The notes below the pieces were generated by a model. The model searched no databases. It saw only the letters and a list, made by a program, of their open reading frames with translations, and was not told the DNA's origin. Below, piece by piece: positions 7,313 through 34,714 of a stretch of 54,217 bases of DNA. The stretch is from contig JASHNQ010000004.1 of the NCBI GenBank assembly GCA_030041545.1, forward strand, positions 1-54,217. The letters are read 5' to 3'. Position numbers and translations under genes: made by a program. Each line of letters begins with the position of its first letter. Position 1 is the stretch's first letter. The DNA comes from a candidate division FCPU426 bacterium. GTDB lineage: Bacteria > Oederibacteriota > Muellerivitia > Muellerivitales > Muellerivitaceae.

Positions 7313-7663
7313 CTAGATGCTGATAATGGATTTTAAAATCCGTTGGAGGGTCGTCTTATCGCTGACGTGAAGATGACCCATCTTCTGAATCACCAGGCTC
7401 TTTTCGATGGTGGCCAGGATGGGCTTGAAAAAGGAAGGTTTTAAAAGCCCCGCGCCTTTCCAATGGGAAAGGCCGGCTCCCCCAAACTGGCCGCCGGTGG
7501 CCGGTTGGCTGGTTAAAGCCAAAATGATAAGGTCGGGCCTTGCGCGGTTATAAACGGACGAACTGACCGCTTCGGCAGGCCGCTTCTTAACCGCGGTTTG
7601 GTTGGAAAAAGGGAAAGGAACTAGGACAACGTCCCCGAAGTCATAGTTTGTCGTAGATGGCAT
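7313..7663 (-). CDS. MazF/PemK-type toxin of a type II toxin-antitoxin pair
   Basis: A 116-residue protein with the start of a MazF/PemK fold: YDFGDVVLVPFPFSNQ, then a KKRPAEAVSSSVYN segment corresponding to the RPAvviSs strand. The C-terminal part (LATIEKSLVIQKMGHLHVSD) matches the family's last strand and helix. Known MazF/PemK proteins are ribosome-independent or ribosome-associated endoribonucleases. It overlaps the upstream antitoxin gene by 23 bp, the usual arrangement for co-translated pairs. The usual small residue run after RPA is altered to EAV, so activity is not certain. A second, unrelated mazEF lies at 41.1-41.6 kb. Confidence 0.72.
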   Translation of the reverse strand: MPSTTNYDFGDVVLVPFPFSNQTAVKKRPAEAVSSSVYNRARPDLIILALTSQPATGGQFGGAGLSHWKGAGLLKPSFFKPILATIEKSLVIQKMGHLHVSDKTTLQRILKSIISI

Positions 7664-7847
7664 CTTCGGGATTGTCCCAGACTCGAGCGAAGGATTTTAC
7701 GGACCGTTTGGAAGCGGCTTTCGTCAATAGACGGTCGGTGCTTTTATGGCGCAGGAACTCCACGAAATCCTCAACCTCGTTGATCTGATCCAAGGGAAGG
7801 GATTCAATTTTTTTGATCAGCGTCAGGACATTTTTCTTTGTTTTCAT
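7641..7847 (-). CDS. Antitoxin partner of the MazF-like toxin (DUF2281-like)
   Basis: A 68-residue acidic/helical protein: MKTKKNVLTLIKKIESLP, then NEVEDFVEFLRHKS and a C-terminal tail RVWDNPEDAIYDKL. The helix with EVxDFVxFL followed by a WxxPE(D)xxY(D) tail is typical of small antitoxins of the DUF2281/VapB-like group that pair with MazF or PIN toxins. It precedes and overlaps the toxin gene. A consensus -10 box lies only 7 nt before its ATG (7855-7860), which implies a leaderless transcript. It should bind the toxin and repress its own promoter; both are inferred from the family. Confidence 0.7.
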   Translation of the reverse strand: MKTKKNVLTLIKKIESLPLDQINEVEDFVEFLRHKSTDRLLTKAASKRSVKSFARVWDNPEDAIYDKL

Positions 7848-7854
7848 GAGGGCG

Positions 7855-7885
7855 ATTATACACGTTTAAATTATTTTTTGAAAGT
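7855..7885 (-). promoter_or_regulatory. Probable leaderless promoter of the toxin-antitoxin pair
   Basis: On the minus strand a perfect TATAAT (7855-7860) stands 7 nt before the ATG at 7847, with a weak TTTCAA -35 candidate around 7880. The expected start point is at or next to the start codon, and no Shine-Dalgarno sequence is seen, both consistent with leaderless translation. A TTTAAA-containing AT-rich stretch overlaps the spacer and could be the operator. Confidence 0.45.
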
Positions 7886-7981
7886 TCATGCAGGATGAAA
7901 GGTATTGGGAATTTCCTGGGAAAGGTCATTGAGGCGGGACTTCAGCCGGCGGGAAAGGTTTTCATCGAGCTTGATTTTCAC
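7886..7981 (-). pseudogene. Truncated DUF5615 (PIN-like) toxin remnant
   Basis: A GTG at 7981 overlaps the stop of the DUF433 gene (GTGA). It opens a 31-codon frame, VKIKLDENLSRRLKSRLNDL and so on, ending at TGA 7886-7888. The first 15 residues match the start of DUF5615 PIN-like toxins (MKIKLDENLPRRL...). These normally run to about 110-120 residues and follow DUF433 antitoxins. Here the frame stops after the first helix and AT-rich DNA follows, so the nuclease core is missing. This is most simply a decayed toxin whose antitoxin remains. Confidence 0.6.
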
Positions 7982-8220
7982 TTCCCGGCGGCTACCTTCC
8001 AAACGTTTTCGTGGGAAAGCTCGGAGGCGTAAACCAAAGTGGCATGAATGTCGTCAATGGTCAAATGGGGATAATGGTCGATGATTTGCTCCGGGGTCAG
8101 GCCCTCGGCCAATCCATCGAGGATGATGGAAATGAAAATTCGGGTCCCGCGGATGCAGGGCAATCCCCCAGCGACATTGGGATCGACGGTCACCCGTTTT
8201 AGAAGTTCATCATGCGACAT
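7978..8220 (-). CDS. DUF433-family antitoxin
   Basis: An 80-residue protein from ATG 8220, preceded by GGAG at good spacing (a start four codons earlier is possible). The sequence MSHDELLKRVTVDPNVAGG, then LPCIRGTRIFISIILDGLAEG and LTPEQIIDHYPHLTIDDI, is a textbook DUF433 (VapB45-like) winged-helix antitoxin: the phrase GxPxIRGTRI and the turn before the YPxL(T) helix are both present. Its cognate DUF5615 toxin follows with a 4-base overlap but is truncated to 31 codons, so this is an orphan antitoxin now. Members bind DNA and the PIN-like toxin. Confidence 0.85.
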   Translation of the reverse strand: MSHDELLKRVTVDPNVAGGLPCIRGTRIFISIILDGLAEGLTPEQIIDHYPHLTIDDIHATLVYASELSHENVWKVAAGK

Positions 8221-8243
8221 GAGGTTCTCCATGGCTTTAAAAA

Positions 8244-8410
8244 CTTAGAGATTCCAACAAAACCCTGTTTTTAAGAAATATCCCCCTCTCCCTTGAGGGG
8301 AGAGGGACGGGGCGAGGGTGGCAACTGCGGGGTTTTCCACACCCTTCACCCTACCCTCTCCCGCAAGGGGCGAGGGTCTTGGGAGGTTTTGTTAGTGTCT
8401 CTTAGTGTGA
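8244..8410. repeat. Head-to-head pair of GC-rich REP elements inside a longer inverted repeat
   Basis: Two copies of a dispersed REP-like sequence (core CCCTCTCCC-loop-GGGCGAGGGT) stand in opposite orientation at about 8282-8320 and 8341-8378. They are framed by a further inverted repeat: ACTTAGAGATTCCAACAAAA near 8244 against GGTTTTGTTAGTGTCTCTTA near 8385-8405, 18 of 22 bases matching. The whole unit is therefore a 165-bp imperfect palindrome resembling a BIME or non-autonomous element. Further single REP copies are at 13166-13200 and, in coding sequence, 39970-40009. Confidence 0.65.
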
Positions 8411-8545
8411 TTATAGGCGAAAGGGCTTCGGAATGCTCTTTTTAGGCCTTCAGGGCCTTGCCTGCAGGCCCTTGTCCTTTTGGGAATCCTCATGCTGGAT
8501 ATCCAAGGGAGTTTCCTTCCGGGTTACCCTTATAATGGACTTTGA

Positions 8546-8759
8546 GGGTGTTCAGCGGGTGAACACCCTGGGCTTTTCCAGGTAGACCGTCGGGTGGGGT
8601 GTTAACCAGGTTAACATTCTCTGCCGCACCAACGGGGCTTGGGGTGTTAACCAGGTTAACACCCTTGACTTGACCAGCCCGTTCACCGGGCAGGGTGTTC
8701 AGCGGGCCATAATCCCTACATTTTCAAGGCGGCTGGGGGTGTTCAGCGGTCCCGGCGGG
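8546..8759. repeat. Array of five GGGTGTT-headed palindromic repeats
   Basis: Five repeats start at 8546, 8597, 8642, 8693 and 8737 (periods 51, 45, 51, 44 bp). Two types occur. Type A is GGGTGTTCAGCGGG: perfect 9-bp arms in the first copy, only the left half in the fourth and fifth. Type B is TGTTAACC-A-GGTTAACA, with perfect 8-bp arms in copy 2 and 11-bp arms in copy 3. Spacers of about 20-30 bp are unrelated. No open frame covers the region and no cas gene is near. The array sits between the GH44 stop and the DUF433 antitoxin. Confidence 0.75.
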
Positions 8760-8770
8760 GTTTTCCCTCA

Positions 8771-8813
8771 AAAGTACCGGCAACTTTGCCAGTGGCAAAG
8801 TTGCCGGTACTTT
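8771..8813. repeat. Perfect 20-bp-arm hairpin with nested dyads
   Basis: Arms 8771-8790 and 8794-8813 are perfectly complementary with only a 3-base loop (AGT). Each arm is itself near-palindromic (GGCAACTTTGCC and GGCAAAGTTGCC), so the DNA can fold as one long hairpin or as two small ones. There is no T-run, so it is not an ordinary intrinsic terminator. Confidence 0.8.
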
Positions 8814-8869
8814 CACGATAGCCCTAATGTTGGCTGGTTTTACACCCATTTTGGGGAGGCCCAAGCGCG

Positions 8870-8912
8870 AAATTACCTTGAAATTTCAGGGCCCGAAATT
8901 TCAAGGTAATTT
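8870..8912. repeat. Perfect 18-bp-arm hairpin built around GAAATTTC
   Basis: Arms 8870-8887 and 8895-8912 are perfectly complementary around the loop AGGGCCC. Each arm contains the self-complementary octamer GAAATTTC, repeating the dyad-of-dyads design of the preceding hairpin with unrelated sequence. Confidence 0.8.
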
Positions 8913-8930
8913 TCCGGTGATTTGTGCCCC

Positions 8931-8975
8931 AAAACCGCCTTGAACATTCAAGGCTGGAACGTTCAAGGCAGTTTT
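8931..8975. repeat. Third nested hairpin (GCCTTGAAC / GTTCAAGGC)
   Basis: AAAAC-C-GCCTTGAAC on the left pairs with GTTCAAGGC-A-GTTTT on the right (one mismatch). The left arm also forms its own palindrome with the centre (GCCTTGAA-CA-TTCAAGGC, 8938-8953), and the right arm carries the dyad GAACGTTC. Same construction as the two hairpins before it. Confidence 0.7.
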
Positions 8976-9083
8976 GCCCCGGATAGGGTTCACATAGGCT
9001 CACCCTTAAAATATGTCGCCACATCTACTCAGCCACCACCAAAACCGCCGATGGATTCGACTCCCTCCGGTCGCTCACCATGG

Positions 9084-11669
9084 CTATTGGGCCATTACTA
9101 AAACGGCCGAGAAGGCGGGCACATCCAACCGAATCTGTGCTCCGCCGGCGGCCTGGGCCCCGGAGTCATAAATCCGTTTTCCGGAGGTTTGGCTCAAGGT
9201 ATAGGTATGGTAGACCGTGGCGGCCGCGGGAAGGCTGACGGTGGTGTCCAAGTCCGAATCGGGGTTCCGGTTGACCAGGACCACGAAGGTCTTGGCGGCG
9301 TCCCTGGCGCCGAAGGCATAAAGGTCCGGCGAGGAACTGGTGGCGTCCACGTAGTCGCCCCCGACCCTGTCCCCTCTCCCGTCGTAGTTGCTGTAAAGCT
9401 CGTGGGCTAAAAAGACGTAGTTGCCCGCGTGGGCGCCGTCCCAGTCGCAGGCCAGGTCCAACCCCTCCCGCATGAAGATGCCCAGGGTGGCGGCCTCCAG
9501 GAGGCCACCGTGGTAATAGCTCTTGCTGCTGGGATAGTATTCGGTCATGGAAAGCTTGGTGCCCGGGTAATTCTCCGCGATGATTTTTTTCAGCTTGGGG
9601 ATGATCCCCACGAAGGGGTCCCAAAGGTAAGGCTTGTTGTCCGGGTTCGCGCACCAGCTGTCCGGGTTCTCGAAGGTCGGGTCCCAGAAGATTCTCAAGG
9701 CGTCGAACTGCTTTTGGGCCACCACCGGATCGTAAGGAATGTCGTCCGTGATGAGCTTGATGCTGTGGCCGTTCTGGTCCTTGCCCCACACTTCCGGGAA
9801 GCCGTGGTCGTCCAGGTAGTCGATCAGCCGCTTCCCCGCCTTTTGGGACCGCAGGTTCATTTGCCTCAGGAACCACGCCACCTGCGGTAGGTCGCCGTGC
9901 GCCTTGCGGTCGGTCCATTTGGGGCCATCCCCTTCCTTCTTGTACCCCGTGACGCCGCCCGGCATGTAGTCCCAAGCCGATCCCGCCAGTTCCATGACGC
10001 CCCAAGCCACCATGCCGATGACCTTGGCGCCGGGGTCCAGGGCCTTGACCATGGCCGCGTAGGCGGCGTTCAGGTCCGCCAGTTCATCGTAACCCACGCC
10101 CTTGGGGCGGACGTCCCGGTGGTTCTCATTCCAAAGCCCCGGTTCGTTGTCCATCTGGTAGAACACCACCCCGCCCTGGGAGGAGGACCCGAAGTCCTGG
10201 AGGAGGGTCCTCACCCATTCACCCTGGAACTGGGGCGTGGAGGGAAGGTAGTTATAGTTGGGGTCGTTTCCCCAGAGTTTCTTGCCGTTGGCCGTTTCCC
10301 CCTTGCCCAGCCCCGGTTCGCCGCCGGGGGCCTCCGTCGGGAAAAGCGAAAGGGGGAAGGAGCCGAACTTTTGGCCGTTGGGCGGCGCTTGGGCCACCCA
10401 GCCCGTGATGGGGATGGTGATGATGGGCCTGGCGCCGGCGGACTGGGTGTCCTGGATGAACTTGTAATAGCGTTTGTCCTTTTCGGCGATGCCCACCGGG
10501 CCGCCGGTATTCAAGTAAAACCAGTCGGCCCCGTGGTTGTCCGCGTCGTCCTTCCAGTTGTAGCCGGTGGTATCGTTGCCGCCCCAGCGGTTGAGGGTGC
10601 CGCCCATCTTTTTCAAGGATTCGCCGTCCTGGTAATTGAAGCCCCAAAGATAGGGGGAGATGGGATGGCCCAAGGCCGCCGAAAGCGAGACCGACGCCAC
10701 GGAGCTGGACGTTGGCGCCGTGGTCACGGTGACCGCCTCATAGGAGGAAACCTGCTTTCCGTTGTCGGCCGCCACGCCCACCACGTGCGGCCCGGCGCCC
10801 GGAAGGACGGCGTTTTGGAGTTCCACCCGCCTTTTGCCGGCCCCCGTCACCCGGCCCGCCACCTTGCCGTCGACGGACACCAGGTAACTCCCAATCCCCG
10901 TGTCGTCGGACTTGTCCCACATCACCATCACGCCGCCGGGAACCCGCAGCCACCCCAGGTTTTCCACCGGGGTCACCAAGGCCGTATCCGTGACGAAGAC
11001 CTTGTCGAAATGGACGTAAACCGGCGTGTTCTCGGGATAGGAACCCGCCAGGTCGAAGCGCAGGGTCTTCACTTGGGTGAGGTCGACCTTGGAAAGGCTG
11101 GGGAAGGCCGCGAAGGGAATGACCACTCGGGTCCAGTTCTCACCGATCTTTTTGCCCTCGGCGAAGTCGCTGAGCTTGACGTTGCCGGTCTGGACCCCGT
11201 CGGTGGTGCCGGTCAAGGCCAGGTTGAAATCCACCCCCGGCGCGTTGGTCTTGGCGTAAAGCACGAGGTACCTGGCCTGGGAGAAATCCTGGGTATTCCA
11301 GGAACCGTTGAAAGCCAGTCCCCCTCCCGACCACATCTGGCCCCAGAACTTGTTGGAGGGCGTGGTCACCCAGGTGAACTCGTAGGACAGGCACTTGTCG
11401 TTGTTGCTGTCGCTGTCGAAAAGCACCCAATTGGGGTGGACGCCATAGGTCTTGGCGTCGATCTTTTCCTTGCTGGGGTCGGGCCGCAGGAGGAACTGGC
11501 GCTTGTCGGCCGTGCAGACGATGCTGACCCCTCCCTTTCCATCCTTGCCCGAGGAGTCCACCCAAGAAGGGCCGTAAAACTCGACTTGGTCGTCCGCCCG
11601 GACCAGGGTTGGTTCCAGGACCAGACCCGACGTTAAGCAAACGGCTACCAGGAAAAGGATTCGGCGCAT
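9084..11669 (-). CDS. Exported GH44 endo-beta-1,4-glucanase/xyloglucanase with N-terminal CBM11-like and FN3-like domains
   Basis: The start ATG 11669 follows AAGGGGG; an upstream in-frame ATG at 11744 has neither ribosome site nor signal peptide. The 861-residue product has a signal peptide (1-25, MRRILFLVAVCLTSG). A CBM11-like beta-sandwich follows (about 26-225, ending PVYVHFDKVFVTD), then an FN3-like domain (about 228-315) and the GH44 catalytic part (about 330-860). GH44 hallmarks are visible: NRWGGNDTTGYNWKDDADNH, acid/base E509 in QMDNEPGLWNENH and nucleophile E710 in SMTEYYP. GH44 enzymes cut internal beta-1,4-glucosidic bonds of xyloglucan, CMC or glucomannan. Among the neighbours GH31 alpha-xylosidase and XylF-like protein favour xyloglucan as substrate. 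Confidence 0.9.
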   Translation of the reverse strand: MRRILFLVAVCLTSGLVLEPTLVRADDQVEFYGPSWVDSSGKDGKGGVSIVCTADKRQFLLRPDPSKEKIDAKTYGVHPNWVLFDSDSNNDKCLSYEFTWVTTPSNKFWGQMWSGGGLAFNGSWNTQDFSQARYLVLYAKTNAPGVDFNLALTGTTDGVQTGNVKLSDFAEGKKIGENWTRVVIPFAAFPSLSKVDLTQVKTLRFDLAGSYPENTPVYVHFDKVFVTDTALVTPVENLGWLRVPGGVMVMWDKSDDTGIGSYLVSVDGKVAGRVTGAGKRRVELQNAVLPGAGPHVVGVAADNGKQVSSYEAVTVTTAPTSSSVASVSLSAALGHPISPYLWGFNYQDGESLKKMGGTLNRWGGNDTTGYNWKDDADNHGADWFYLNTGGPVGIAEKDKRYYKFIQDTQSAGARPIITIPITGWVAQAPPNGQKFGSFPLSLFPTEAPGGEPGLGKGETANGKKLWGNDPNYNYLPSTPQFQGEWVRTLLQDFGSSSQGGVVFYQMDNEPGLWNENHRDVRPKGVGYDELADLNAAYAAMVKALDPGAKVIGMVAWGVMELAGSAWDYMPGGVTGYKKEGDGPKWTDRKAHGDLPQVAWFLRQMNLRSQKAGKRLIDYLDDHGFPEVWGKDQNGHSIKLITDDIPYDPVVAQKQFDALRIFWDPTFENPDSWCANPDNKPYLWDPFVGIIPKLKKIIAENYPGTKLSMTEYYPSSKSYYHGGLLEAATLGIFMREGLDLACDWDGAHAGNYVFLAHELYSNYDGRGDRVGGDYVDATSSSPDLYAFGARDAAKTFVVLVNRNPDSDLDTTVSLPAAATVYHTYTLSQTSGKRIYDSGAQAAGGAQIRLDVPAFSAVLVMAQ

Positions 11670-11812
11670 CCAAGCCCCCTTAGTTTTTGATGAAGCCCGT
11701 CGGCGGGCGAAAGAAGCATAGCGGAGAACAACCGACATTTCCACGAACCAGAAGCCTCGCTTAGAATCGCATTAAACTTTTCCCGGATTGTTTCTGCGTA
11801 ATTTTAATTAGG

Positions 11813-12018: not shown

Positions 12019-12080
12019 ACTAAGCACAACCCCATTAAAAAGCATAGGAACCTAAAGGCATAAATTCCTCGCCGGGAATA

Positions 12081-13133
12081 TCACGGCTGTTGGGGGGCTG
12101 CGGGCCACTGCTCCTTGGGCACGTTCTTATAAACCTCCTCCATCTTCTGGAACCCGTCGGCGATCACGGTTTGGACCATGTTGTCCTTGGTGACCGCGAT
12201 GGGGTCCAAGAAATAGCTGGGCACGTTCTTTTTCCCGTTGTTGGTGGTCACCGTTGTGGCGGGCAAAGGTTCGCGCTTGGCCAGGGCTACCGCGATGTCC
12301 GCGGCCTTGGCGGCCAGGAAACGAACCGGCTTGTAAACCGTCATGGTTTGGGTGCCAGCCACGATGCGCTGGCAGGCGGCCAATTCCGCGTCCTGGCCTG
12401 AGACCAGGACCTTCCCCGCCAGGCCCTGCTCGGCCAGGGCCTGGATGGATCCGCCCGCCGTACCGTCATAGGAATCCACCACCGCGTCCACCTTGTTGTC
12501 GTTCTTGGTGAGGATGTTTTCCATGTTCTTGAGCGCGTTGACCGCCAGCCAGTCGTTGGACCATTGGTCCCCCACGATCTTGATATCGCCTTGTTTCACC
12601 AGCGGCCCCAGGACGTTCATCTGTCCCTGGCGCACCAGGATGGCGTTGTAGTCCGTGGGCGCCCCGCCCATGAGCGCGTAGTTGCCCCGGGGCTTCAGCC
12701 TCACCAGGGTCGCGGCCATCAGTTCCCCCACCTTGACGTTGTCGAAGGAAACGTAGGCGTCCACGTCCGAATCCAGGATGAGCCGGTCGTAGGAAAGCAC
12801 GGGAACGCCCATCTTGTGGGCCGCCTCCACCAGGGTGGCGCAGCTCTTGGCGTTGTGGGGGATGACCACCAGGCACTGGATGCCCTGGGTCAGCAGGTTC
12901 TCCGCCTGGGATATTTGAAGCGCGTCGTCGGAATCCGCCGATTGCACCAGGACACCCACGCCTTCGGCGTTGCACCGGGCGGTCAAGACATCCCGGTCCT
13001 GGGCCCAACGGGGGGCCCGCAGGGTGTCCATGGAAAGGCCGATTCGGACGGGGTATTTGGACTGGGGGTTGCCGCAACCAGCTACTAAACCACCCGCCAG
13101 GAAAAGAACTATCCGTATTGCGTTGTGTTTCAT
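12081..13133 (-). CDS. XylF/ChvE-type sugar-binding lipoprotein (probable D-xylose)
   Basis: A 350-residue periplasmic-binding-protein of the type I fold. Its lipoprotein signal ends in LVAGC. The start is ATG 13133, 5 nt after AAGGAG; the adjacent ATG 13136 is equally possible. The mature protein follows XylF closely: VRIGLSMDTLRAPRWAQDRD, DAYVSFDNVKVGELMA, NYALMGGAPTDYNA, QWSNDWLAVNALKNMEN and VLVSGQDAELAACQRI. XylF delivers D-xylose to an ABC permease. No permease or ATPase gene lies nearby, so the rest of the transporter must be elsewhere, or the protein is a sensor component. Xylose is the product expected from the neighbouring alpha-xylosidase. It sits downstream of the DUF6786 gene, separated by a REP element. 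Confidence 0.87.
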   Translation of the reverse strand: MKHNAIRIVLFLAGGLVAGCGNPQSKYPVRIGLSMDTLRAPRWAQDRDVLTARCNAEGVGVLVQSADSDDALQISQAENLLTQGIQCLVVIPHNAKSCATLVEAAHKMGVPVLSYDRLILDSDVDAYVSFDNVKVGELMAATLVRLKPRGNYALMGGAPTDYNAILVRQGQMNVLGPLVKQGDIKIVGDQWSNDWLAVNALKNMENILTKNDNKVDAVVDSYDGTAGGSIQALAEQGLAGKVLVSGQDAELAACQRIVAGTQTMTVYKPVRFLAAKAADIAVALAKREPLPATTVTTNNGKKNVPSYFLDPIAVTKDNMVQTVIADGFQKMEEVYKNVPKEQWPAAPQQP

Positions 13134-34681: not shown

Positions 34682-34714
34682 TTTCAATTTTAACCTGCCA
34701 GGTTAAAATTGAAA
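34682..34714. promoter_or_regulatory. Perfect 33-bp palindrome at the DUF4143 gene start
   Basis: TTTCAATTTTAACCTG and its exact reverse complement flank a single C, so AACCTG-C-CAGGTT is the core. The palindrome ends 4 bp from the start codon and its GAAA also serves as the ribosome site. The position suggests an operator through which the gene product or a partner represses the gene, or a mobile end. Confidence 0.65.

Follow-up and report, generated by a model that had tools for sequence, protein, structure and literature searches.

Among the repeat systems described so far, REP/BIME mosaics are the closest known kind to the palindrome cluster analysed here. Published BIMEs are regularly spaced, are sometimes hybrid and carry complementary changes (PMC2817692). 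Like the units of the present cluster, they are extragenic stem-loops of 20-45 bp that form mosaics of several families with a species-specific distribution (PMC2817692, PMC3733652). The selfish palindromic repeats of Volvox organelle genomes offer a second parallel, being short intergenic hairpins with a preferred loop that are often inserted into one another and are related more by structure than by sequence (PMC2670323). Template switching can create, maintain and mend perfect stems, and can invert loops (PMC8794818).

The cluster lies in a window of 54,217 bp, by which we mean the whole stretch of DNA analysed, from a candidate division FCPU426 bacterium. It is probably a BIME-like intergenic mosaic made up of extragenic palindromic repeats that are non-autonomous and confined to a single FCPU426 genus. 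Many intergenic sites carry homologous units, and the size of the arrays differs between sister species. The genome (G000) is a 3.8 Mb draft in 115 contigs, denoted by C numbers below, and was compared with the congeners G001 and G002. About 30% of it was read base by base, partly picked by query matches, and the remainder was covered by pattern and similarity searches through the matches listed. Genes were checked against Pfam in the window; gene calls at the other clusters are based on open reading frames.

The cluster and its genomic setting

The cluster occupies a gap between a DUF433 gene (7978-8232, minus strand; PF04255, 3e-21) and a GH44 gene (9084-11744, minus strand; PF12891, 2e-52), downstream of the stop codon of the latter, and its non-coding nature, proposed from a sequence-only reading, is supported. 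The distance from the GH44 to the GH2 gene is 1.8 kb in the window genome as compared to a few bases for the orthologues in G001. Within 7313-8232, the DUF433 gene is followed by an apparent truncated DUF5615-like frame (ca. 7888-7980, minus strand, identified by eye) and then by a DUF2281 and a PemK-like gene. These look like decayed toxin-antitoxin pairs, located in the stretch that separates GH44 from GH2. DUF433, which had been suggested as a conserved neighbour, is not one.

A MITE-like element with internal CCCTCTCCC hairpins (8241-8405) adjoins the cluster. Its imperfect terminal inverted repeats, CTTAGAGATTCCAACAAAACC (8244-8264) and GGTTTTGTTAGTGTCTCTTAG (8385-8405), were read from the sequence, and it shows 74% identity over 164 bp to an element on C19. 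Related cores are present in C22, C13, C69 and C92, and such cores apparently bear different terminal inverted repeats in C13, C22, C19 and C92. Elsewhere in the window there is an isolated perfect palindrome of 33 bp, TTTCAATTTTAACCTGCCAGGTTAAAATTGAAA (34682-34714), and the contig end (53432-54217) contains a long array of imperfect repeats of 12, 24, 54 and 108 bp of the CCGTnTTnGTnG type.

The strong palindromes in 8500-9000 are real: five were observed with a score of at least 10, whereas 500 dinucleotide shuffles of 8501-9000 yielded none in 495 cases and one in 5. Folding of both strands, which had been proposed as a check, indicated strong structure, with RNA fold z-scores for the cluster of about -9 to -10.

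The GTGTT dyad array

The first part of the cluster consists of 25-bp dyads of the form GGTGTTnACC.GGTnAACACC, with GTGTT starting at 8548, 8599, 8644, 8695 and 8740. The alternating 51/45/51/45 spacing noted in the sequence-only reading was thus recovered, but not its five dyads, since the array contains two clean dyads (AGGGTGTTCAGCGGGTGAACACCCT, 8545-8569; GGGGTGTTAACCAGGTTAACACCCT, 8641-8665), one with an imperfect outer arm (GGGGTGTTAACCAGGTTAACATTCT, 8596-8620) and two half copies with the left arm only and no AACAC arm (8692-8706 and 8737-8751). In the first dyad, 24 nt are identical to a copy on G002 C148. The segment 8692-8749 matches C69 at 85% and C114 at 83% identity, and the flank of the second half copy is common to C69, C114 and G002 C277.

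The GTGTT/AACAC core is conserved, and covariation in the dyads is limited to one strongly covarying pair (29/41 versus 15.3). The exact pattern GTGTT-N9-AACAC has 12 matches in 3.8 Mb, at least one of which is unrelated, a count that leaves degenerate copies aside. In several other arrays the units are spaced at 32 and 42-44 bp. C69 (L002 1100-1290) and C114 (L010 1860-2130) contain a further intergenic array of TTTTTGAGAGTCTCAAAAA palindromes, with a 53-bp period in C69.

The 43-bp double palindromes

The second part contains three hairpins, at 8771-8813 (E1), 8870-8912 (E2) and 8932-8974 (E3), with predicted DNA folding energies of -24.0, -15.6 and -10.9 kcal/mol. In all three, each arm is itself a near-palindrome, as had been noticed, with centres at columns 14.5 and 29.5. 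E1 contains the inner palindromes GGCAACTTTGCC and GGCAAAGTTGCC and is paired at 21/21 positions around a 1-nt centre; E2 contains GAAATTTC twice (20/21 paired); E3 contains CCTTGAACATTCAAGG and GAACGTTCAAGG, with 20/23 pairs when counted over 8930-8976. Arms of 14-20 bp and spacers of 3-8 bases had been reported, which understates the palindromes: with inner mismatches allowed, the arms reach 21-23 bp around a 1-nt centre.

The hairpins had also been taken to be unrelated. Judged by their sequences, they are one family, each member exactly 43 bp long. A genome-wide pattern search identified three further palindromic 43-mers (two on C22, one on C1), giving six in 3.8 Mb, and all six share the ends AAAnnRCC..GGYnnTTT and have 18 of their 43 columns invariant. 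E2 and E3 are 76% identical over 38 nt, and the pair recurs as paralogues at C22:39654 and C22:39718; E3 and the latter are 89% identical over 63 bp, flank included. In the sampled sequence, the same ends at other lengths belong to terminator-like GC hairpins or short chance matches. The pattern retrieved no palindromic copy from 18 relatives, where matches were non-palindromic and about as frequent as in the control. No target-site duplication was visible in the 43-mer flanks and no clean empty site was found, the orthologous gap of the C1 copy being too diverged to compare. A separate family of dispersed hairpins, 41 bp in size and of the form GTnACnCCnAACGCT..AGCGTTTGGTGTnAC, occurs at L094 5843-5883, L035 11722-11762 and L135 6420-6460.

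The architecture of the 43-mers outlives their sequence, and the copies covary in Watson-Crick pairs in the outer and inner palindromes alike. Among the six copies, 92.9% of the outer positions are paired and both sides have changed in 12 of the 21 pairs. Outer covariation was 0.460 compared to 0.155 after shuffling (0/500) and at most 0.137 in slid controls, and the inner palindromes yielded 0.427 compared to 0.128 (0/500). The clearest case is the hairpin at 8771, where the TTGAA-type quarter sites are instead GGCAA-type at all four places. The shuffle control leaves the kinship among copies in, and the covariation represents few independent events since there are only six copies, of about four lineages.

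A sister family of 23-bp palindromes

A second family, AATT-N15-AATT, is absent from the window cluster itself and occurs in clusters of the same kind on C22, C13, C45 and C46 and on G002 C148 and C154, with single copies on C43 and C63. The elements are exactly 23 bp in size, and their 15 distinct variants are self-complementary, with fixed length and ends and almost freely variable stems. Palindromic AATT-Nk-AATT sequences (k = 11-39) are almost confined to k = 15, and none of the other self-complementary tetramers searched shows such fixed-length behaviour. Mismatch counts for AATT-N15-AATT in a 1.13-Mb sample were bimodal, with 0-1 mismatches in five sites and 4-7 in seventeen. The 15 variants are 98.2% paired, with G-T combinations in 2 of 165 cells and a covariation of 0.796 compared to 0.165 after shuffling. 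The loop is ATT (8) or AAT (1), and one base followed by AATAAGGG adjoins the palindrome in 11 of 11 tabulated copies, while at least four other copies are without AATAAGGG.

On C46, five such palindromes stand in tandem (12044-12526; L205 4045-4527) at spacings alternating between 136 and 94 bp, with near-identical flanks and different self-complementary stems. Downstream of the units at 12044 and 12274, 57 of 62 bases agree (92%), whereas three of the six stem positions per arm differ, all of them compensated. The difference between stem and flank gave a Fisher p of 0.0015 for this chosen comparison and of 0.012 for a second pair, 12180/12410. From these paired comparisons, stems appear to change faster than flanks while staying self-complementary, which simple constraint would not predict.

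Distribution among sites and relatives

Pieces of 8518-8991 recur in C100, C69, C114, C22 and C1 and in the nearest named relative, the candidate division FCPU426 MAG JASHQZ (G002), which has GTGTT arrays too. In other genomes, the exact dyad pattern forms arrays in this FCPU426 relative only and gives single matches in the rest. No GTGTT arrays and no AATT 23-mer were found in G001, a member of the same genus. A phage or plasmid origin was rejected as no match was found; two viral contigs had one GTGTT match each and the 43-mer pattern in neither.

Two cluster sites are common to the sister species, where the units differ, and the third congener is without clusters. Between radA and ispD, G001 has a gap of about 70 bp and no array, G002 has an array of nine units, and G000 has a single clean copy alongside decayed ones. 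The gap downstream of the NQGTEFW gene has 23-mers and 43-mers in G000 and one 23-mer with GTGTT units in G002. The conditions under which the sequence-only reading was to be abandoned gave a mixed outcome: pairing is conserved among paralogues and lost in orthologous copies in G000, and one 43-mer, at C1:7797, stands isolated. Since orthologous copies decay, single copies are not strictly conserved, and the gains, losses and decay across congeners indicate that clusters come and go. Several clusters are located at gene 3' ends, and the one on C69 apparently lies between divergent genes. Several are apparently near toxin-antitoxin genes, but we claim no link since these were recognised by eye, without a background rate. 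A role as a partition, replication or recombination site, as had been suggested, found no evidence, the clusters being located at many unrelated intergenic places and missing from a congener.

Comparison with known repeat classes

The sequence-only reading had found no fitting element class and held that copying would not be expected to repeat one architecture with different sequence. Both the hairpins and the dyads are nevertheless copied elements present at other loci, and their organisation fits REP/BIME mosaics: window-type clusters are regularly spaced and extragenic, and stems are kept through complementary changes. The REP-defining features fail. A GTAG or CGTC tag within 6 nt of the stem was found in 0 of 58 units, and REPs usually exceed 100 copies per genome as compared to 12 exact GTGTT dyads and six 43-mers here. 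Stretches around RAYT-like genes, one with a TnpA cut by the contig end, contained no GTGTT, 43-bp or 23-bp unit, and RAYT-borne REPs were rejected on this basis. With tag, RAYT and copy number all failing, the cluster works like a BIME without being filed as one. It also differs in the 43-mer, whose palindrome is itself built of palindromes, and in the 23-mer stems, whose sequence is nearly free.

MITEs are likewise small non-coding repeats inserted in gaps, and the neighbouring element at 8241-8405 has terminal inverted repeats, but in the 43-mers and dyads the palindrome is the only such repeat, and no target-site duplication was seen. The Volvox repeats differ in belonging to organelle genomes and in their variable lengths, as compared to the fixed 23 or 43 bp here (PMC2670323). 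An intrinsic terminator was rejected, no GC stem with a T run matching the dyads or 43-mers, as was a known RNA family, the window giving only sub-threshold, miRNA-type chance matches in Rfam. At the related loci, tRNAs alone reached the gathering score.

Origin and maintenance of the symmetry

Selection for shape or template switching, the options offered by the sequence-only reading, are the right pair, because changes on the two sides leave the pairing intact. Hairpins that act on the GH44 transcript, ending, stabilising or processing it as a terminator, 3' stabiliser or attenuator, would account for a cluster just downstream of the GH44 stop codon, for the strong predicted RNA folds and for the several clusters at gene 3' ends. 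Such a function is unlikely, as the dyads and 43-mers have no terminator-like match with a T run, no Rfam family reaches the gathering score at the cluster, the changes are almost purely Watson-Crick with scarce G-U pairs, orthologous sites in a congener lack hairpins and the C69 cluster is apparently placed between divergent genes. The scarcity of G-T pairs and the lack of T tracts favour a symmetry kept at the DNA level over RNA structure. Duplex DNA might be bound by a dimeric regulator or nucleoid protein, with each 43-mer as two adjacent palindromic operators, and the perfect dyads, the conserved GTGTT/AACAC core and the unit spacings in several arrays, which at 32 and 42-44 come near whole helical turns, are consistent with this. 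We consider it quite unlikely given the 51/45 spacing in the window, the absence of arrays from G001 and the stems of the 43-mers and 23-mers, which are not conserved as a sequence-specific binder would need.

The units could also serve a resident HUH or tyrosine enzyme as sites of single-strand recombination, in the manner of attC or IS200/REP. Their fixed ends and free palindromic interior resemble the logic of hairpin-recognised sites, and the genome has 13 Y1_Tnp matches compared to none in the array-less G001. This is quite unlikely as well, since units were not found flanking any Y1_Tnp gene and the GTAG/CGTC tags are absent. Improbable too, and the least probable of these readings, is that each palindrome is a purely mutational relic of independent template-switch events, with no element class at all. 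Template switching is marked by loop inversion and by multi-base changes in pairs (PMC8794818), and the 92% downstream identity of the C46 units, with 3/6 compensated stem differences per arm, points the same way. Against it stand the lengths fixed at 23 and 43, the invariant ends, the 3' AATAAGGG tag and the copies at other loci, whose flanks are homologous. The fixed length and ends imply that the element is recognised too, template switching alone explaining the symmetry only.

For the preferred BIME-like mosaic, we infer that the units would multiply by duplication or insertion, in the form of DNA folded into single-strand hairpins. Their symmetry may be kept by an enzyme that recognises the hairpin through its length, ends and sometimes loop, and/or by hairpin-templated (template-switch) copying in which one arm overwrites the other. 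No transposase or other mover linked to the units was found in the stretches around RAYT-like genes. It is conceivable, though rather unlikely, that the units form a new class of DNA hairpins, mobile or copied, that are recognised by their structure: an enzyme or other process would fix their length, ends, 3' tag and, in some cases, the loop, with the essentially free stem rewritten on both arms together. The data can be explained without any physiological role.

Implications

To our knowledge, repeats of this bacterial phylum have not been described previously. Those of the present cluster are most likely extragenic palindromes, non-autonomous and operating at the DNA level, that duplication has spread and whose arms are kept symmetrical by a putative mechanism of hairpin-templated copying and/or hairpin recognition. 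It is unusual that some families change both mirror halves together with length and ends fixed. When both arms of a stem change in pairs, this is normally read as proof that an RNA structure is under selection. In the present families such changes affect DNA repeats that are dispensable, G-U intermediates are almost absent and, in one array, the stems differ more than the flanks. The repeats thereby provide a natural test of hairpin-templated copying versus selection.
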